Shown here in pieces: positions 28,877 to 41,453 of a stretch of 63,628 bases of DNA (positions are counted from its first letter, which is position 1; every line of letters starts with the position of its first letter). The notes under the pieces were generated by a model, which was not told the origin of the DNA, made no database searches, and worked only from the letters and a program-made list of their open reading frames with translations. The DNA lies in contig NZ_JAMXFA010000038.1 in NCBI RefSeq assembly GCF_025370785.1, positions 1 through 63,628 on the forward strand, read 5' to 3'. Position numbers and translations under genes: made by a program. Source of the stretch: Laspinema olomoucense D3b (GTDB lineage Bacteria > Cyanobacteriota > Cyanobacteriia > Cyanobacteriales > Laspinemataceae).

Positions 28877-30247
28877 TTATTTCCAGCGATTTTTTAATTC
28901 CGGATTTTGATTTAAAACCCCCACAATTGAATCGGCAATATAAGTTGTAAATACTTGATTGCCCGTTTGGTTATAATGACAACAACTATCAATGTAAACA
29001 ATTTCATTCACATTGTCGAAGATTTTTGTCGCATTAAAAATCGGGATATTTTCGGTTTTTAACTGTTCTATCGTTTGGAGTAAAGCCGGATATCCCTTCT
29101 GCACCCCACCTTGATATGGATGATTTTCAATAATGGCTAATTTTCGCTCATCCTCACTAAACGATCGCCCGGTGGGATAATACTGATTGGGCTGAATAAA
29201 ATGGAAATACAGACTATTTTGATTTTCCAAAGATTGCTTCATCAACCGCGATGAATTTCCCCATAACTCTGCCATTTTCTTAAATGCTGTGTCTACATCC
29301 ACCACTTCCTGGGGATTTTCAATTTTGAGGATAAAATCTTGTTCGGGATTTTGTTGTTTTTGCCCTCGAATTTTCTCAAATGCCATTAAATTTTCTTGAT
29401 ATTTCCTCGCCGCTGCCTGAGTGGAAACAACTCGGAATAAATAAGTAGAAGCTAATTTACTTTCTTGTAAACTTTCCTGCCTTTGTATTAACTCTTCTCG
29501 ATTTTCCACAATTTTGGCGATCGCACTCAGTTCATCCACCCCTAAATTATTACTGGCAACATCCCGCAGCGGCAACAAATGCTGAACACTCGGCATAGAA
29601 AGCGCAATATTTTCCTGATAATTCAGATGAGATAAGGCGACTTCATTAAATCCATCAATATTAATGACAAAATCAAATTCTTGTCCCAAAGACAAGATAT
29701 AATTTAAAATAAGTAGTTGTTGCGGTTGCTTATATCCCCCCAAAGCAAAGGGCAGAATAATAATTTCTTTATTGGCTAACTCGGGAATTTTCTCTTTCAG
29801 GGTTTTAGTCAGCACTTGATTTTCACTTTCATACATCGCAAAGTTACTCGCAACCGAACCCCCGAAGACCCCGATAATCACTTGATTCGGGTTTTGCCGG
29901 ATAAAGGGATAGTCATAATCCGAAGGAAACCCCCAATTATTAGCCGGGAAAACCCGGGTAGAAAACTCTAAATTTACAGGCTGGTTTGGTTTTAGAACAT
30001 ATCCAAAAAAGGGATGAAGTCTTTCCAGGATCGTTTCATCCGTGGCAGTTTGATTCAGCGGTAATCCCAACTGGGCGATCGCCTCATTCGTTGAGCGATC
30101 GCTGCGAGTATAAAACAGTTGTTTATATTTACTCCAATATAAAGCCGCCGCCCCTAACTCGATAAAAATAGCCAAAAAAACCAGATTAATTAAAGTAATT
30201 TTAACAATTTCTGGTAATTTTTTTGGTAATTCAGTCAATTTTTTCAT
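28877..30247 (-). CDS. Membrane-anchored SGNH/GDSL-like hydrolase of the carbamoyltransferase cassette
   Basis: Last gene of the sxtI-J-K-like cassette. After one N-terminal membrane helix (LINLVFLAIFIELGAAALYW), the protein has an SGNH-type layout: GVFGGSVASNFAMYE holds the nucleophile Ser and oxyanion Gly, VINIDGFNEVAL the Asn block, and YIDSCCHYNQTGNQVF the terminal Asp-x-x-His. It probably works on the periplasmic side, adding or removing acyl groups from a glycan or metabolite; substrate unknown. I start at the ATG at 30247 (MKKLTELPKKLPEIV), giving 456 residues; the frame is open 32 codons further, to 30343. Confidence 0.8.
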   Translation of the reverse strand: MKKLTELPKKLPEIVKITLINLVFLAIFIELGAAALYWSKYKQLFYTRSDRSTNEAIAQLGLPLNQTATDETILERLHPFFGYVLKPNQPVNLEFSTRVFPANNWGFPSDYDYPFIRQNPNQVIIGVFGGSVASNFAMYESENQVLTKTLKEKIPELANKEIIILPFALGGYKQPQQLLILNYILSLGQEFDFVINIDGFNEVALSHLNYQENIALSMPSVQHLLPLRDVASNNLGVDELSAIAKIVENREELIQRQESLQESKLASTYLFRVVSTQAAARKYQENLMAFEKIRGQKQQNPEQDFILKIENPQEVVDVDTAFKKMAELWGNSSRLMKQSLENQNSLYFHFIQPNQYYPTGRSFSEDERKLAIIENHPYQGGVQKGYPALLQTIEQLKTENIPIFNATKIFDNVNEIVYIDSCCHYNQTGNQVFTTYIADSIVGVLNQNPELKNRWK

Positions 30248-30346
30248 AAATTTATCAGCTAATTTCACTGGATAGGATAAAGGTTCTCCCCAGGAGTGGG
30301 AGAATCTTGCTCCCAATCTCCTGGAGTAATCCCAGACAGGCAACCG

Positions 30347-30511
30347 TTAAAACAACGTGTAAATAAAGGGGGCGATCGCCGATGCCTGAGTCAACACAAT
30401 CACCCCGCCCAGTAACACCAAAGTAATAATTAAAGGAGCCATCCAGTATTTTTTACGCTCCCTTAAAAATCCCCATAAATCCTTGATAAAATCCCAAATT
30501 GATTCAAACAT
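30347..30511 (-). CDS. DUF5989 / SxtK-like small membrane protein
   Basis: A 54-residue protein too short for a standard ORF list. It begins MFESIWDFIKDLWGFLRERK, then a membrane helix (WMAPLIITLVLLGGVIVL), and ends IAPFIYTLF. Its ATG overlaps the stop of the SxtJ-like gene as TAATG, showing translational coupling. The 165-bp length equals, as I recall it, that of sxtK in saxitoxin clusters, where the gene also follows sxtI and sxtJ. Function unknown; the conserved neighbourhood suggests it assists the carbamoyltransferase at the membrane. Confidence 0.85.
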   Translation of the reverse strand: MFESIWDFIKDLWGFLRERKKYWMAPLIITLVLLGGVIVLTQASAIAPFIYTLF

Positions 30512-30942
30512 TAAAACGGTTTCTCCATACTTTCGCGATTTCTCCGGGTGCTAGAAACCCGGTAACTCTCTAGCTTCGCATCCAAGCGGCGTGCCATCGG
30601 GTCTTTTTTAAACACTCCCCGCATGACTAATCCCATCGGCATCAACAACAAATAGTAAATAATCCCTAAAATAATCCGGCTATTAATCGCCCCTAGAAAC
30701 AGTCCAACTTTCATCCAACCGTGATAAACCGGGTCTAAAGTTTTGGGAGCAATTAACGCCCAAGCCCACAACACCCCCGCCACAATCCAAGGCCAAATTG
30801 GCAGAGAATGAGCGCGAATCCAAGGAATTAATAACCCAAATAACCCTACAAAAATTGCTCCAGTAACCAGTCCAAATTCACGCAATCCTTTTTTATCCAG
30901 CTTCGGAATCGTATGAGTCATAACCAAGGCATCAGCCATCAA
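30511..30942 (-). CDS. SxtJ family membrane protein
   Basis: A 143-residue protein with three or four membrane segments (FGLVTGAIFVGLFGLLIPWI, WPWIVAGVLWAWALI, IILGIIYYLLLMPMGLVMRG) and a basic C-terminal tail (RRLDAKLESYRVSSTRRN). The segment PMGLVMRG followed by KKDPMARRLD is typical of SxtJ. The start could be either of the first Met codons. It lies between the carbamoyltransferase and the SxtK-like gene and overlaps the latter. Biochemical role unknown in any organism to my knowledge. Confidence 0.85.
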   Translation of the reverse strand: MMADALVMTHTIPKLDKKGLREFGLVTGAIFVGLFGLLIPWIRAHSLPIWPWIVAGVLWAWALIAPKTLDPVYHGWMKVGLFLGAINSRIILGIIYYLLLMPMGLVMRGVFKKDPMARRLDAKLESYRVSSTRRNRESMEKPF

Positions 30943-30968
30943 AAATAACAGAGCTTTTTCTCAAAATA

Positions 30969-31084
30969 AGCCCGCGCAGGCGGGCTTCGTCCGGATAGCC
31001 CCACCCTTGAGGGTGCGGGCTTTTCCCAAATAGCCCGCGCAGGCGGGCTTCGTCCGGATAGCCCCACCCTTGAGGGTGCGGGCT
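30969..31084. repeat. Two tandem copies of a 53-bp double-hairpin repeat
   Basis: Positions 30969-31021 and 31032-31084 are identical. Each unit has two stems: AGCCCGCGCAGGCGGGCT, then a TCGTCCGGAT linker, then AGCCCCACCCTTGAGGG continuing TGCGGGCT. It lies between the carbamoyltransferase and the SxtJ-like gene, so it could attenuate transcription within the cassette. The layout resembles REP/BIME-type elements. Confidence 0.92.
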
Positions 31085-31094
31085 AATTCCTAAC

Positions 31095-32969
31095 TTAATC
31101 TAATTCAAATTCTTGCTTCCAAGACTCATCCTTTTTCCAAGGTATTTGCTCACTCTTCGGTAACAAGAAATTCTCAATCACCAAATAATCCATCTCGGTC
31201 CGCATAAAACAGCGATAGGCATCTTCTGGGGTACAAACAATCGGTTCACCGCGCACATTAAACGAGGTATTTACCAATACCCCACAGCCAGTTTTTGCTT
31301 CAAATTGACGGATTAACTCATAGTACCGAGGATTGGTTTCTTTGTGCACCGTTTGGATCCGGGCGGAATAATCCACATGAGTCACCGCTGGGATTTGCGA
31401 TCGCGGCACGTTCAGTTTCTCAATCCCAAATAATAACTCCTGTTCCGCCGTCATGGGAATCCGTAACCCCTCTTTCACTGCTGCCACCAGCAACATATAA
31501 GGACTCGCCGAATCTATCTCAAAATAATCAGAAACGCGATCGCTTAATACCGAAGGGGCAAAGGGTCGAAATGACTCCCGATACTTAATTTTTAGGTTCA
31601 TCACAGACTGCATTTTAGCACTGCGCGGGTCACCAATAATCGATCGCCCACCTAACGCCCTGGGACCAAATTCCATCCGTCCTTGGAACCATCCCACCAC
31701 ATTTTCATCGGCTAAAATTTCCCCTAATCGAGGCAACAATTCCTCATCATCCAACCGATAATATTTTGCCTGGACTGCATCCAAATAGGACCGGATTTCC
31801 TCATCCCCAAACTTCGGCCCTAAATAAGACCCTTTCATGCGATCGCCCACGGTCAAATTCTGCTTAGGCGAGTCTTCAATCTCCGAATTGACTACCCGAG
31901 GTTGCTCACCATACTGATACCAACCCGCTAATGCCGCCCCTAATGCGCCTCCGGCATCTCCTGCCGCTGGTTGAATCCAAATTCCCTTAAAAGCGCTTTC
32001 CCGCAATAGTCTACCATTAGCAACACAATTTAACGCCACTCCTCCAGCTAAACACAAATAATCCGCTTCTAACTCTTTATGCACCGTTTTCGCCAGACGC
32101 AATACCACCTCTTCCGTGACATATTGAATCGAACTGGCGATATCCATTTCTTTCTGAGTTAACTTCCCTTCTGGAGGGCGCGGCGGTCCTCCAAATAACT
32201 CATCAAACTTGCGATTAGTCATAGTTAAACCCGTCGCATAGTTGAAATAATCCATATTTAAACGGAACGTGCCATCATCCCTTAAATCAATTAAATGATT
32301 CAGGATTTTATCAATATATTTGGGTTCCCCATAAGGCGCTAACCCCATCAATTTATACTCCCCCGAATTTACCTTAAATCCGGTGTAGTAAGTAAACGCA
32401 GAATAGAGCAATCCTAAAGAGTGGGGAAAATCAATTTCCCATTGGGGAATCAGTTGATTGCCATCCCCTAACCAAACCGAAGTCGTTGCCCATTCCCCCA
32501 CCCCGTCCAAACACATCACTGCCGCCCGTTGAAACGGGCTCGGAAAAAAGGCACTCGCCGCATGAGCTTGATGATGTTCAGTAAATAAAAGCTGAGGCAA
32601 TTGGGAGGTTTTACATCCGGCAAACTTCGCCAATTCTTGTTTTAAAATAGTTTTTAAATAGAGTTTTTCTTTTAACCAAACAGGCATAGCAGTAATAAAG
32701 GAACGAAACCCTTTCGGCGCATAAGACAAATAGGTTTCTAACAGCCGCTCAAATTTAACCAGCGGTTTATCATAAAATATAATTTGGTCTAACTCATTGA
32801 GGGAGAGATTGGCCTCTTGAAGACAATAAGAAATTGCACTTTGAGGAAATCGAGCATCATGCTTTTTCCGCGAAAATCTTTCTTCCTGTGCCGCCGCAAT
32901 AATATCGCCCTCAATCACTAAAGCCGCTGCGCTATCGTGATAGTAACCGGAAATTCCCAGAATTTTCAT
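31095..32969 (-). CDS. Carbamoyltransferase (NodU/CmcH/SxtI family)
   Basis: Transfers a carbamoyl group from carbamoyl phosphate through carbamoyl-AMP to a hydroxyl of a sugar or secondary metabolite. The N-terminal Kae1-like domain has MKILGISGYYHDSAAALV and the metal-binding LLFTEHHQAHAASAFFPSPF (about residue 130 on). The C-terminal TobZ/YrdC-like domain has GWFQGRMEFGPRALGGRSII and a terminal TGCGVLVNTSFNVRGEPIV. 624 residues, full length. It is the first gene of a minus-strand cassette with SxtJ- and SxtK-like genes and an SGNH hydrolase. Its acceptor is unknown. Confidence 0.94.
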   Translation of the reverse strand: MKILGISGYYHDSAAALVIEGDIIAAAQEERFSRKKHDARFPQSAISYCLQEANLSLNELDQIIFYDKPLVKFERLLETYLSYAPKGFRSFITAMPVWLKEKLYLKTILKQELAKFAGCKTSQLPQLLFTEHHQAHAASAFFPSPFQRAAVMCLDGVGEWATTSVWLGDGNQLIPQWEIDFPHSLGLLYSAFTYYTGFKVNSGEYKLMGLAPYGEPKYIDKILNHLIDLRDDGTFRLNMDYFNYATGLTMTNRKFDELFGGPPRPPEGKLTQKEMDIASSIQYVTEEVVLRLAKTVHKELEADYLCLAGGVALNCVANGRLLRESAFKGIWIQPAAGDAGGALGAALAGWYQYGEQPRVVNSEIEDSPKQNLTVGDRMKGSYLGPKFGDEEIRSYLDAVQAKYYRLDDEELLPRLGEILADENVVGWFQGRMEFGPRALGGRSIIGDPRSAKMQSVMNLKIKYRESFRPFAPSVLSDRVSDYFEIDSASPYMLLVAAVKEGLRIPMTAEQELLFGIEKLNVPRSQIPAVTHVDYSARIQTVHKETNPRYYELIRQFEAKTGCGVLVNTSFNVRGEPIVCTPEDAYRCFMRTEMDYLVIENFLLPKSEQIPWKKDESWKQEFELD

Positions 32970-36384: not shown

Positions 36385-38706
36385 TTACTGATTTTGATTC
36401 AGCATTTGCTGGACCTCCTGCCCAGGGGAATACCCATAACCGAAGTTGCCATTTTCCGAATCATCCAGAATCTGAGGCGTCACCAGGACAATCACCTCTT
36501 GTCGCCGATTCTCCCGTTGAGTGCTTCGGAACAAAGAGCCAATGATAGGCAGGTCCCCTAAAATCGGGATTTTACTGACGAAAGAGCGATCGATATCTTG
36601 AATAATCCCTGATAAAATCAAGGTTTGTCCGTCCCGAATCCGAATAGTGCCTGATTGCAGAGTTCTCGTGGACAATAAAGTCCCACCTGTATTCGATCTT
36701 CCCGTTGGTGCCGAGACACTCGGAATGATGTTGATCGTAACAAATCCATTGTCATCAATTCTTTGGACGTTTACGGATAATGTTAAACCCGCATCTCCAA
36801 TCCGCCCCGGTTGAGAAAACAATTCTACGACTCCAGTGTCTTCATTGACTTGCTGATAAACACCAGGCTGATCTATTTCCTGAGTTAAAGATAACCGGGC
36901 AGTCTCCCCTTCTTGAACGACCATTGTGGGGTCAGTAAGGATTTTAGCATTGCCGCTAACAACCTGAGCTTGTAGAAGCGCCAAAAACTTCTGGGGGTAT
37001 TGGAATAAAGTGGGCAAACTGAAATCCGCTGTACCAGGTGTAATGACTCCGGTTGTCGGATTGACTTCAAACACCGTATATTCTGAAACGCGAACCTCTC
37101 TAGGATTCGAGCTAATCCCTGGAACCGGACGAAGAAAGAGCGCCCCTGCTCCAGGACCCGTAAGCGGAACTTGAGTGGTTTGGTTGGGATCAAACTGGAG
37201 TCCGGCCCCTCCCAATGGATTAGCCAAGACCGGGGGAACGAGGGTACTCTCAGTGATTGTATTAGCGGAAGGAGGATTGATCCCTCCAAAGTTAGCAACT
37301 GCTGCACCTCCATCATTGACAAAGAAACTGTCATTAATTCCGAAAGAAAAGCTGGTGCTAAAGTTTTCCGTTGCCAATAGGTCTACATCAACAATTTTGA
37401 CGTTGACGGCCACTTGCCGACGGCGTAAATCTAACTGACTCAAGAATGATGTAGCAATTTCAACTTTGTTCGGGGGACCTACTAAGGTAATCCCATTGAT
37501 TCTTTCATTAGTTAGTACGGATAAACCACTCAGCAATAAAGGACCGTTTCCTTGGGTAGCTCGCAGTGCTAAAATCTCCGGGGTTCTCGATTCAATGGTT
37601 CGAGCGGCTGGCCCTTCACCAATGGTAATAATGTCTAACCGTTCCCTAGAAATTTGAGTTTCCGCACCTTGTGCCGTTAAAAAACCTGCTGCATCGGTGG
37701 CTGGAACTTGATTCATCCTGAGAGTCCGAACGACTACATTTCGGGCCTCGTCTGGAAGTCGAGTTCCGACAAAAATTGTGTCTCCAACACGGTTGGCCTC
37801 TAAAGCACTCAGACGAATAATGTAATTAAAAATGTCTTGAACTGACTCATTTTCAATATCTAGAGAAATTTTGGGACTCGCATCAGCTACTTCCGCCCCA
37901 GGTTGTGGAGTCTGACCATCTGCAGCCGGTGCGACACCCGGTGTATAGGCCAAATTCAGTCCAGCAGTTCGGGCCAAAAGGGACAGTACATCTCGCACCG
38001 ATGCGTCGCGTAACACTAAACGGGGAATAATTTCTGTGGATCCCGTTCCCAGATCGATCGCAGCGGTAGCAGGTGGAATGTTAGAGACTGCAATATCTCC
38101 CACCGGGGGGGCAACGGCTCGCGGCTGAAATGGGGGGGCTGATGCCTGGTTCGGTCTGGCAATAGGAGGAGGGCCACCCTCAATGGTGATTTCTGGATTG
38201 GGCACGAGTACGTTTGGACTCGATGGAATGCCAGGGGGTGGCGTCATGCCAGGGGGTGGGGGTGGTGCGGAAGGGCTGACATTCGGTAAGCTGGCAACGC
38301 CTCCTCCTGTATTGAATCCCAGATTAATTCCAGAGGCGTCAGCTTGGTTGATGGCTACTTCTGGGGCGCTGCTGCTACCACTGACGATCACCCGGACGCT
38401 ATTGGCATCGAGGGGGGTGACAACAATGGAGGCAATCCCTGGGGCGGGGTTAATTTGACGGAAGCTCTGCCCCCCGGGTAAGCTGAGCTGAGTATTGATA
38501 ATATCTGCAATAACGTCTGTACCTCGGTTGACGGTAAAGACTTGGGGCCGATCGCCCCCCTGGGTATCCAAAATCACCTGGACTCCGCCACCGCTGGTAT
38601 TGACGTTCACTCCTGTGATTTGCGTGACTGCCATTGCCGGTGCGCTGGCCATGATCACGATCGCACTAGCTCCGAATAAGCACCCGAGTGCATGAGGCTG
38701 TTTCAC
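36385..38706 (-). CDS. pilQ: Type IV pilus secretin PilQ
   Basis: Outer-membrane secretin through which the pilus passes. A signal peptide (CLFGASAIVIMASAPAMA) is followed by an AMIN domain (about 28-120; peptidoglycan binding), a Pro-rich linker (about 140-200), secretin N-domains (SVRDVLSLLARTAGLNLAYT, SVQDIFNYIIRLSALEANRV) and the secretin barrel with QTLILSGIIQDIDRSFVSKI and IPILGDLPIIGSLFRSTQRE. 773 residues. Last gene of pilM-N-O-Q, but an IscB element separates it from pilO, so it may depend on read-through or a new promoter. Confidence 0.95.
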   Translation of the reverse strand: MKQPHALGCLFGASAIVIMASAPAMAVTQITGVNVNTSGGGVQVILDTQGGDRPQVFTVNRGTDVIADIINTQLSLPGGQSFRQINPAPGIASIVVTPLDANSVRVIVSGSSSAPEVAINQADASGINLGFNTGGGVASLPNVSPSAPPPPPGMTPPPGIPSSPNVLVPNPEITIEGGPPPIARPNQASAPPFQPRAVAPPVGDIAVSNIPPATAAIDLGTGSTEIIPRLVLRDASVRDVLSLLARTAGLNLAYTPGVAPAADGQTPQPGAEVADASPKISLDIENESVQDIFNYIIRLSALEANRVGDTIFVGTRLPDEARNVVVRTLRMNQVPATDAAGFLTAQGAETQISRERLDIITIGEGPAARTIESRTPEILALRATQGNGPLLLSGLSVLTNERINGITLVGPPNKVEIATSFLSQLDLRRRQVAVNVKIVDVDLLATENFSTSFSFGINDSFFVNDGGAAVANFGGINPPSANTITESTLVPPVLANPLGGAGLQFDPNQTTQVPLTGPGAGALFLRPVPGISSNPREVRVSEYTVFEVNPTTGVITPGTADFSLPTLFQYPQKFLALLQAQVVSGNAKILTDPTMVVQEGETARLSLTQEIDQPGVYQQVNEDTGVVELFSQPGRIGDAGLTLSVNVQRIDDNGFVTINIIPSVSAPTGRSNTGGTLLSTRTLQSGTIRIRDGQTLILSGIIQDIDRSFVSKIPILGDLPIIGSLFRSTQRENRRQEVIVLVTPQILDDSENGNFGYGYSPGQEVQQMLNQNQ

Positions 38707-38833
38707 CGTTCCCTCCTCCCTTAAAAAAAGTCCACTCTGATTAAACTGCGATTAAAGTCTTATATAGCCCTTCAATCCCTAACTGTCAAAAAACGGATAG
38801 GTTTGATTCATCTTTCTTCCCCCTTGGAGACCC

Positions 38834-38860
38834 CCACCATATCTGTACCCAGATTGGTGA
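38834..38860. repeat. Subterminal hairpin at the iscB 3' end
   Basis: CCACCA-T-ATCTG-TACC-CAGAT-TGGTGA folds into a 10-bp stem with one bulged T and a TACC loop. It lies 24 bases beyond the iscB stop. The hairpin at 40376 has the same frame in the same orientation, with compensatory changes in the inner stem (ATCTG/CAGAT versus AGCTG/CAGCT). Confidence 0.75.
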
Positions 38861-38883
38861 TGGGAGTCCAAGGGGGGCGGGGT

Positions 38884-40170
38884 CTAAGCAACATAAGCGT
38901 AGCCATCTTTTTTATGAATGTGTTTGCAGTATTTGTGGCTAATTCCTTGAACTAGCCCATCGGTTGTTGAGATGTTGAAATGACCAGTGGCACGAGTAGC
39001 TACTCGACCCCAGTGCGTCCCAACCTTCTTACCAGAGGTGACAACGGCTTTAACAATGTCACCTGTTTGAAAACCTTTGTGAAACTTGCTTCGGGAACAG
39101 TAGCGAACAGGGAAACCAAACTTGTTAGTGCGGCATTGCTGACGAGTTCCATGCCCTTTAGCCGTAATCAGCAAGGGTTTTATTCTAGTAGTGATTAGCT
39201 GCTCCGGAGTCGATTCTCCAACGCAGGCCGCGTCCCAGTAATGAGTCTTTTCCAATCCTCGGATGGTGCGGTTGTACTTGGTCCTCCCTCCCGTGCCAAC
39301 CTCAACAGGTAAGCCCAATTTTTTAAGGTTGAAGTACAAATTCCACCGAGTGACGTTGACTGCTGCTGCATCAGCTAACGGTCTTTTAGCTTGCCCCAAA
39401 ATTTGCTTCATCAGGTCAGGCTTGCCTTTGAGAAAGTCTTTGATGTCCTGGTTGCCCTTTTCTCGATTGCAAGGGACACAAGCTAAACATAGGTTACTGA
39501 CTCTGTTCGAGCCTCCTTTTGAGCGAGATTGGATATGCTCAACCTCAAGTTTAGTGTCCTTCGCACCACAGTAGGCACAAGTTCTATTCCACTTGGACAG
39601 CAAGAACTCACGAATCTCGTAACCTACTAGAGTTCCTTGCTGGTAGGTAATCCCACTAATTTCGGGATTCTCCATCTTTTGTGTGTCAAACCGGACCAGT
39701 TCTTGAGAAATAGCATTGATTTGGCATAGCAAGGACAGTCGTTTGACCCAAGTCAGAATGTTCGCAACTCGACTATTTAAAGATGGTGGCAACCATCCTG
39801 TAGGGCGGGTGCGGTTCAGTCCGCGAGGTTTTCGATAACGGGTTTTACGGTTACGGCGTGACCTCCTTAACTGGCGACGTGAAGTTAATGCGTCCCGAAT
39901 TTGGAAACCACGATGTTGCAGTTCAGCAACCCAAACAACTTCACCAGTTTTGTCATTGACCAGAGCTAATCCAGTTGTTTTGGCCCCTGGGTCAATCTTA
40001 ATACGAAGTGGCTCTACGTCAGGATTTAATACCTCCTCTTTCAGAATCAACGTGAAAGGATAGCGTCTAAAAACCGCAGCTTTTCTTTGGGACAGCAGCA
40101 TTCTGGCCCTACCTGGATGGATGGGGTTAAGAGGCTGCGATTTTGTGTCTAGAACGAAAACTTTACTCAA
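38884..40170 (-). CDS. iscB: RNA-guided endonuclease IscB
   Basis: An OMEGA nuclease related to the ancestor of Cas9, guided by an omega-RNA to cut DNA. At 428 residues it has a normal length. In order: PLMP-like N-terminus (VFVLDTKSQPLNPIHPGRAR), RuvC-I (RIKIDPGAKTTGLALVND, about 57), an Arg-rich bridge helix (RRQLRRSRRNRKTRYRKPR), RuvC-II region, an HNH domain with two Cys pairs (TCAYCGAKDTKLEVEHIQSR ... CVPCNREKGNQ, about 197-240), RuvC-III (THYWDAACVG, about 310) and a C-terminal guide/PAM-side region. All catalytic residues appear intact. The start is TTG at 40170, supported by AAGGAGA 8 bases upstream. Confidence 0.93.
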   Translation of the reverse strand: MSKVFVLDTKSQPLNPIHPGRARMLLSQRKAAVFRRYPFTLILKEEVLNPDVEPLRIKIDPGAKTTGLALVNDKTGEVVWVAELQHRGFQIRDALTSRRQLRRSRRNRKTRYRKPRGLNRTRPTGWLPPSLNSRVANILTWVKRLSLLCQINAISQELVRFDTQKMENPEISGITYQQGTLVGYEIREFLLSKWNRTCAYCGAKDTKLEVEHIQSRSKGGSNRVSNLCLACVPCNREKGNQDIKDFLKGKPDLMKQILGQAKRPLADAAAVNVTRWNLYFNLKKLGLPVEVGTGGRTKYNRTIRGLEKTHYWDAACVGESTPEQLITTRIKPLLITAKGHGTRQQCRTNKFGFPVRYCSRSKFHKGFQTGDIVKAVVTSGKKVGTHWGRVATRATGHFNISTTDGLVQGISHKYCKHIHKKDGYAYVA

Positions 40171-40405
40171 CGGGTGAGTCTCCTTGCGGGTAATGTTAGC
40201 CTTGACAAGGTTTTAGAAGTTTGTCGCGTTAACGACACTGGCTTCGACCCGATATGCCTGTTTAATCGTTAACCACAGAGCTACAGACTGGCTTCGTATC
40301 TGTAGGTGTGATGACTTCCAAAACGTAGTACACGAGGTACTTAGTCGGGTAAACTCTAGGCTTCTTTAAAAGTCCCCACCATAGCTGTACTCAGCTTGGT
40401 GGCAG
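40171..40405 (-). ncRNA. Putative omega-RNA (HEARO RNA) of IscB
   Basis: The 230 bases directly upstream of iscB are non-coding and highly structured, where omega-RNA is expected. Stems seen (plus-strand coordinates): GTTAACGA 40228-40235 with TCGTTAAC 40266-40273; CTACAGA 40281-40287 with TCTGTAG 40299-40305; AGTAC 40327-40331 with GTACT 40337-40341; and the terminal hairpin 40376-40402. The 10-mer ACTGGCTTCG occurs in two of the loops (about 40237 and 40287). The guide should lie at the 5' end, beyond about 40403. Exact ends unknown. Confidence 0.7.
40376..40402. repeat. Subterminal hairpin at the iscB 5' end
   Basis: CCACCA-T-AGCTG-TACT-CAGCT-TGGTGG: an 11-bp stem with one bulged T and a TACT loop, in the same orientation as the hairpin at 38834. 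Both the outer CCACCA/TGGTG and the bulge are conserved between the two; the inner stem differs by compensating bases. Confidence 0.75.
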
Positions 40406-40565
40406 GTAGTTTACACTCCCCTATCCGGATTTTGACTTTAAATTTTTGTAAAGGGACACGGCTGTAGGGAAATGGGTTGCGATCGCCCTCCCCAGTTTTC
40501 CGGTGCCGTGACCTTTATGTTCTGAAACTCCTGCAACTGCGATCGCCATTCTTAGGCTTATTCCC
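40403..40565. other. Spacer between pilO and the IscB element
   Basis: The likely ancestral pilO-pilQ intergenic sequence, containing two HIP1 sites. The stretch next to 40403 should supply the natural guide of the omega-RNA. Confidence 0.4.
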
Positions 40566-41453
40566 TTATGGTGGTGGGGCTGCCGCCGGTGGAGCCGCTG
40601 GGGGCGGCGGTGGAGCTGCTAAATTTTTAAGCTGCTCCGGTGGTAACGGCATCACCGCTATCAAATTAAAATTAGTTTCGAGACTGGCGGGTGCCTGTTC
40701 GGTAATTTTACCATCAGGATTGACAAAAATCGTCTGAGTTCCTTCACCCAATTGACTACTCAATTCACCGAACACAACCATTTGTTGCAGCCGTTCAAGC
40801 CGTCGCAAGGTATCTAGGGTTTGCTGATAGCTTCCGGCCATTTCCAGGGCCATTGTCTTCCCTTCCACCGCTTGGGACAGGGTTAACGAAGGTGTAGGCG
40901 GGGGGGGAGCAGCGGCGGGGTCAGTTGGGGGAGTAGTAGCGGCTGGGGGAGCAGCGGCTGGGGCCGCTGGGGGAGGAGCTGCTGCGCCTCCAGCGGCTGC
41001 GGGAGCTTCGGTAAAAATCCACTCGTTCGGACTGGGTTCTATGGGCTTGAAGGATTCTAACTTTCCGCCACTTTGCCGGACAATTTGGTTAACATCCAAA
41101 AGCAAGGTTTCTAAGGTAGCCCCCTGAGCAAATAAGGCTAAGACATTTTCCTTTCGCTCTTGGGTTGTGGCTAAATTCGCTTTAGCCTCTTCCATTTGCC
41201 TGATTTTCGATTGTTGATTGGCGATTTCGGCTTCTTTTGCAGCAATTTGCGTCTTTAAGTTCGTCTGCTCTTCCATCGCAGGCAATAGCATTTTAAAGGC
41301 TGCAAAACCCGCGAGTCCCAACCCGAGAACGGCAATTAAAATCCCTTGAATTTGCGGGGTGAGGACAAAGCTACCAATTTTATAACTTCCTGGTGGTGCA
41401 GCCGCCTCAGCCCGGGCTGCCTCCATTGCCATAAACTGTTCGCTGACGGTCAT
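40566..41453 (-). CDS. pilO: Type IV pilus inner-membrane protein PilO
   Basis: Part of the PilM-N-O-P alignment complex that connects the pilus motor to the secretin. One membrane helix near residue 35-55 (GILIAVLGLGLAGFAAFKML), a coiled coil (about 60-105), then a ferredoxin-like domain interrupted by a long Ala/Pro-rich insert (about 150-195) and closed by another Ala/Pro-rich tail. Its ATG overlaps the pilN stop by four bases (ATGA). Low-complexity inserts of this kind are common in cyanobacterial PilO. Confidence 0.88.
   Translation of the reverse strand: MTVSEQFMAMEAARAEAAAPPGSYKIGSFVLTPQIQGILIAVLGLGLAGFAAFKMLLPAMEEQTNLKTQIAAKEAEIANQQSKIRQMEEAKANLATTQERKENVLALFAQGATLETLLLDVNQIVRQSGGKLESFKPIEPSPNEWIFTEAPAAAGGAAAPPPAAPAAAPPAATTPPTDPAAAPPPPTPSLTLSQAVEGKTMALEMAGSYQQTLDTLRRLERLQQMVVFGELSSQLGEGTQTIFVNPDGKITEQAPASLETNFNLIAVMPLPPEQLKNLAAPPPPPAAPPAAAPPP

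Follow-up and report, generated by a model that had tools for sequence, protein, structure and literature searches.

The locus analysed here has its closest described counterparts among the HEARO/IscB nucleases, the ISC transposons and the IS200/IS605 elements with TnpB. ISC transposons, said to have been described by Kapitonov in 2016, reportedly hold iscB between IS200/IS605-like ends. The guide of the omega RNA is a flanking stretch of about 16 nt, elements of the TnpB family carry their target motif on the left and their guide on the right, and an unpaired T in the stem of the terminal hairpins has a known role in IS608. A model of retention by homing is said to have been extended to IscB by Meers in 2023. 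For TnpB, such a model is described in excerpts of three papers (PMC8612924, PMC11870625, and PMC12477157), and the excerpted part of PMC9755519 places only a few HEARO nucleases near TnpA.

The window (the whole stretch of 63,628 nt that was analysed, a contig of Laspinema olomoucense D3b) holds a locus of this kind (Table 1). It is best explained as a non-autonomous IscB (OMEGA/HEARO) element, which a Y1 transposase would have mobilised in trans and which would be retained through the RNA-guided cutting of empty sites, a reading to which a probability of about 0.86 is assigned. A sequence-only reading of the same DNA had already proposed an IscB OMEGA element, and the guided_IscB protein, the full HEARO RNA and the intact ends agree with it.

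Table 1. Features of the IscB element and its surroundings (positions in the window)
Feature	Position	Strand	Evidence or remark
Whole element, 1603 bp	38812..40414	-	Between pilO and pilQ; 7/7 same-genus empty-site alignments and end of the HEARO match
iscB, RuvC-HNH nuclease, 428 aa, TTG start	38884..40170	-	Open ORF; Pfam, NCBIfam, PDB relatives
Omega RNA (HEARO, RF02033)	40190..40414	-	Full-length match, 1-211 of 211; 129.9 bits, gathering score 83
Flank at the omega RNA 5' end, expected 16-nt guide	40415..40430	-	Matches the empty site of relatives
ATGA adjoining the element 3' end, expected target-adjacent motif	38808..38811	-	TCAT on the + strand
Subterminal hairpin, omega RNA end	40376..40402		Inner stem AGCTG/CAGCT; unpaired A mid-stem (T on the + strand)
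Subterminal hairpin, other end	38834..38860		Inner stem ATCTG/CAGAT; same unpaired base
pilQ (secretin), downstream neighbour, outside the element	36385..38706	-	PF00263, 117.2 bits
pilO, upstream neighbour, outside the element	40566..41453	-	PF04350, 22.6 bits, only just above the cut-off of 22
IscB relatives with 53-62% identity	L101-L106, L108, L110-L112, L118, L119		

The nuclease, its RNA and the borders of the element

The product of iscB is, by its sequence, a candidate RNA-guided DNA nuclease. It matches the NCBIfam model guided_IscB (NF040563) with 459.5 bits (cut-off 175) and holds full-length Pfam matches to PF14239 (RRXRR, 243.9 bits) and PF01844 (HNH), that is, the split RuvC with an inserted HNH and the arginine-rich bridge of IscB proteins. 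Its relatives of solved structure are TbaIscB and OgeuIscB (9k30 and 7xht). Residues D60, E157, H212, N226, N235, H310, and D313, which we take to be catalytic from alignment to the solved IscBs, are invariant in 41 aligned rows of at least 415 aa, taken from 50 elements with an iscB match (nine shorter or broken ones were left out, and one locus enters twice, as L088 and as G003d). Together with the open frame of 428 aa, these seven residues bear out the earlier claim of an intact iscB with its RuvC and HNH residues in place. The omega RNA lies directly upstream of the gene, as in other IscB/OMEGA loci.

The borders were obtained from empty sites, located with the N-terminus of PilQ as a query in 79 genomes, the own genome included. 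The gap between pilO and pilQ is empty in the alignments of all seven other same-genus genomes, the element thus occupying this site in one of the eight. Alignment of the junctions places the ends at 38812 and 40414, the latter being position 1 of the HEARO model. The borders proposed from sequence alone, 38834..40402, are the outer edges of the two hairpins; these hairpins are real, but the borders were drawn too narrowly because the hairpins are subterminal, the true ends lying 22 and 12 nt further out. Compared with the seven empty sites, the insertion shows no target duplication, and the element sits beside a short fixed motif, as IS200/IS605 ends do. In G003 and G006, the closest relatives over this stretch, ATGAATGA is found in place of the single ATGA of the window. 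Either the recipient would have had one unit, or one unit would have been lost, and the insertion would be exact only if the recipient had one ATGA unit.

The expected guide corresponds to the left half of the empty site and matches it in all seven same-genus relatives. Four of these (G002, G003, G004, and G006) hold an exact CCGGATAGGGGAGT followed by ATGA, while the motif after CCGGATAGGGGAGT is ATTA, not ATGA, in the remaining three; by sequence, the flank would provide the guide and the opposite junction the motif. A search of the own genome for CCGGATAGGGGAGT plus ATGA at up to two mismatches returned only the junction itself, where the motif reads GTAA. Eight other matches to guide and motif have three mismatches each (reversed control pattern, 0), and some relatives hold extra matches elsewhere with two mismatches. 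By eye, ATGA follows the conserved 3' end in 21 of the 23 loci, out of 26, for which the 3' end was printed; the 190 nt available for L097 fell short of the end, and that of L101 is not recognisable.

Between the element and pilQ, a TTGACA and a TATATA spaced by 17 nt can be seen by eye on the - strand at 38750-38800, a stretch retained in most relatives aligned at the empty site, which the promoter scan did not accept. Since the element lies upstream of this stretch, pilQ may keep its own promoter. The promoter scan itself returned no site where 1.8 were expected by chance, and the scan for terminator-like sites found one, with 2.4 expected. Elsewhere in the window, two tandem copies of a 63-nt, hairpin-rich repeat occupy 30958-31083. 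An Rfam match to CRISPR-DR28 at 31031-31054, which covers part of one copy, was rejected, as no array is present in the region examined (30000-32200).

Terminal hairpins and the search for a transposase

The two hairpins have the same architecture, an outer and an inner stem separated by a single unpaired base, and the one at 38834-38860 is nested within a longer stem (38819-38876). Their subterminal location, identical orientation at both ends and unpaired base are those of IS200/IS605 ends. The two same-orientation hairpins of the sequence-only reading were recovered at 38834-38860 and 40376-40402; the compensating changes proposed for their inner stems hold as to compensation but not as to number, as a single pair differs (G-C vs T-A).

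This pair was followed in two sets. Among 14 hairpins of related copies picked for the same length, 11 of them distinct, it is G-C in seven, T-A in two, A-T in one and unpaired in one. In this set, 93.4% of the cells pair, four of the 11 pairs change on both sides, and the covariation score is 0.238, compared with 0.109 after shuffling, with none of 500 shuffles as high; further pair types did not exceed the shuffles (336/500 as high). The second set derives from a search of 194 genomes with two pairs left free and up to two mismatches allowed. The pattern recurs in 39 of them, the own genome included, and the reversed control pattern in two. In 55 distinct strings copied by hand from the resulting listing, the pair that differs in the window is Watson-Crick in 51 (21 GC, 14 CG, 9 TA, and 7 AT), and the second free pair in 49, nearly all AT. 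The single compensating change thus belongs to a strongly covarying structure, given pairing at the free position in 51 of 55 strings.

Thirty hairpin loci, the window being one, were fetched. An iscB is found in eight, a TnpB gene in seven and a whole Y1 gene in two (the TnpB and whole-Y1 calls come from Pfam on nine ORFs picked by eye), and neither IscB nor Y1 was found in the other 13 in a scan covering these two families. A Y1 fragment is also present in L193 and L208. A scan of 20 of the hairpin loci with Rfam returned no HEARO match. Relative to the hairpin, the gene runs in the same sense for iscB (8/8) and Y1 (2/2) and in the opposite sense for TnpB (7/7); the contrast between IscB and TnpB has a Fisher p of 1.6e-4, which is descriptive, as some loci are close relatives. 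Two of the TnpB loci (L184 and L187) hold the hairpin twice in one orientation, as does the IscB element. Read on one strand, elements of both types would therefore carry their target motif on the left and their guide on the right.

The hairpins had been read as Y1-type ends, a view supported by the occurrence of the same class both with TnpB elements and next to tnpA genes of the Y1 type. L181 and L182, the loci in which the Y1 gene is whole, hardly differ from one another, and their tips are unlike those of the IscB element, so that we can only infer a shared transposase. A more general proposal would be that, in this cyanobacterial group, one hairpin class serves IscB, TnpB, and Y1 TnpA elements, with iscB reversed with respect to tnpB such that, on the strand on which the transposase acts, the same end supplies both guides, and that in the genome of the window homing is now the only means by which the nucleases persist or spread; this proposal, taken as a whole, is tentative and rather improbable. 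That genome holds three full-length IscBs, 13 TnpB-domain matches and no detectable Y1 transposase. The comparison of hairpin sense among IscB, TnpB, and Y1 was not found in a literature search over partial texts, and may have been published earlier.

Inspection of the ORFs revealed no tnpA within the element, which consequently does not qualify as an autonomous IS200/IS605 element, and neither PF01797 nor NF033573 (at E-values up to 10) detected a Y1 transposase in the own genome. The earlier statement that tnpA is lacking is upheld to this extent, in a draft assembly with gaps. Y1 genes are present in 70 of the 79 genomes of the relatives set, including six of the seven other same-genus genomes. 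Among the 13 TnpB-domain matches of the own genome, 12 of them above the cut-off, four are fragments at or near contig ends adjoining an assembly-breaking repeat, and a tnpA could therefore possibly be hidden in the assembly gaps. These fragments, on C62, C31, C28, and C66 (L218-L221), are joined to a common repeat with 92-94% identity, which by eye resembles a group II intron at its 3' end. Eight Y1 queries, taken from eight of ten Y1 loci, matched none of the 38 IscB loci, several of which were shorter than requested; likewise, in a partial inspection by eye, no Y1 gene was seen within 5 kb of the HEARO copies of relatives among the matches listed.

Related copies, selection and alternative explanations

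The own genome (7.02 Mb, 104 contigs) holds four HEARO matches. The IscB of copy B (contig C98, 36627) is 89% identical to that of the window and that of copy C about 60% (60-61%), while copy D is a HEARO match without iscB. No empty site was obtainable for copy B, whose flank is present in only two of eight genomes, the own one included. About 150 nt beyond one omega RNA without iscB (L004, G000:C98:168444-168673, - strand), a hairpin end similar to that of copy C can be seen by eye; this locus looks like a guide-only derivative that might use an IscB in trans. In the relatives set, HEARO matches occur in 45 of the 79 genomes, above the family cut-off in 36. The nearest copies elsewhere are full elements inserted at different sites, G004a (91.7% identity over 1608 bases) and G005b (90.1%), with the same ends followed by ATGA; the iscB of both is frameshifted, that of the window being the only intact one of the three. 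IscB relatives with 53-62% identity were observed in Marinobacter, Vreelandella, Anaerolineae, and a Desulfonema genome, which suggests horizontal spread.

In the preferred reading, a Y1 transposase (TnpA) from another element would once have mobilised the IscB element, reading its hairpins single-stranded on the + strand of the window and, acting in trans, excising and inserting one strand. From their features, we infer that the ends of the IscB element may be the substrate of a TnpA; any present helper is hypothetical, as no Y1 was found in the own genome. After insertion, the flank adjoining the omega RNA would become the guide, the complex of IscB and omega RNA would cut alleles in which the empty site is still joined (the guide directly before ATGA), and the ensuing repair would restore the element or place a copy in a new strain. 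The own copy would be spared because its guide-like flank is followed by GTAA rather than by ATGA.

Entry without any transposase, only through cutting by IscB and recombination with incoming element-bearing DNA, is very unlikely. It would account for the fact that no Y1 gene was found, and the empty alleles with a guide match and ATGA in four of the seven relatives would be suitable targets, but it requires a donor occupied at the same site, of which there is none among the seven other same-genus genomes. Copies at unrelated sites would need another route, and the conserved hairpins would be left unexplained.

Selection bears on whether IscB serves the element or the host. The iscB of the window is under purifying selection: dN/dS is 0.069 against copy B and 0.03-0.05 against L089, L090, and L091, in four comparisons with dS of 1.0-3.0, near or past saturation, and a count restricted to the first 300 codons gives 0.087 for G004a and 0.137 for G005b (no dS was obtained against L092 or copy C). 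With copy B as the outgroup, the branch of the window since its split from G004a has 16 nonsynonymous and 49 synonymous changes, and that of G004a 14 and 32, with 10 ambiguous changes. On the other hand, the left arm of one terminal hairpin is missing from copy B as well as from G003d, its partner at the same site. Seven codons differ between them, in about five events that each alter the protein; six codons change the amino acid, and the synonymous one sits inside a cluster. By hand calculation, five altering events out of five have a chance of about 0.001 at the rate of the window branch (16/65) and of about 0.26 under neutrality (0.763). A first count of 10 nonsynonymous and 1 synonymous changes (Fisher p 4.8e-5) was discarded as overstated, since the changes are clustered multi-base ones. 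Such a pattern would be expected once selection on a gene has ceased, and it fits an IscB selected through the spread of its own element rather than for the host, although the numbers are small and assembly errors are possible. The same-site pair of copy C and G003c, which differ in two bases, both nonsynonymous, was left out of this argument, and the Moorena pair L096/L098, at different sites with nine differences, three of them synonymous, does not separate selection for the element from selection for the host.

These data weigh against a domesticated nuclease, that is, an immobile element whose IscB is kept by the host, for example, for defence or pil regulation. The lack of tnpA in the element and the failure to find one in the genome would be in line with domestication, as would the intact ORF next to two frameshifted nearest copies and an element lying in the direction of the pil genes. 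Nevertheless, the site is occupied in only one of eight same-genus genomes and hence not conserved, both element ends are intact, the expected guide points to the element's own empty site, and the end-damaged copy B shows about five events between two genomes, small as the number is, each altering the protein. Domestication is thus highly improbable. The sequence-only reading had suggested that, with no tnpA, something else might explain why the nuclease was kept. This suggestion finds no support: going by PMC9755519 and by the 38 IscB loci without a Y1 hit, the lack of tnpA is usual for IscB/HEARO loci, the expected guide matches the element's own empty site, and the purifying selection on the iscB of the window (16 nonsynonymous and 49 synonymous changes) stands against the roughly five protein-altering events of the end-damaged copy. 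A recently inserted dead relic in which decay has not yet begun is hardly credible: the two nearest copies are already frameshifted and no helper transposase was found, but the conserved residues, omega RNA and both ends are intact, and synonymous changes predominate on the window's own branch.

Comparison with known systems

The element of the window, with its parts intact, its ends placed at base resolution (one ATGA unit excepted), seven empty sites and a predicted guide and motif, makes cleavage, homing and trans-mobilisation directly testable. The common hairpin ties IscB elements without tnpA to TnpB and TnpA elements of related bacteria, and the comparison of an end-damaged with an intact copy is relevant to whether selection maintains IscB on behalf of the element or of the host. 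The contrast in orientation and the end-damaged copy are the parts that specialists might follow up.

As regards known systems, the full RNA, the RuvC-HNH protein of about 430 aa and the RNA upstream of the gene are those of HEARO/IscB nucleases (RF02033, NF040563, and the excerpted PMC9755519). The absence of an adjoining tnpA is shared with these as well, as far as the excerpts of PMC9755519 go, and nothing sets the element apart from them, except that its ends and empty sites are resolved. OgeuIscB (7xht) and TbaIscB (9k30) have the same domain order by sequence match, each matched in two stretches, and come from other hosts. The likeness to ISC transposons consists in an iscB between IS200/IS605-like ends, whereas the element of the window holds no tnpA. 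Similarly, it shares with IS200/IS605 elements with TnpB, such as ISDra2 (excerpts of PMC8612924), subterminal palindromes at both ends, a flank-derived guide and motif-adjacent insertion; unlike them, its nuclease is IscB, its gene is reversed relative to the hairpin when compared with TnpB loci, and it lacks tnpA. The element of the window is an ordinary representative of a known kind, though one that is resolved unusually well.
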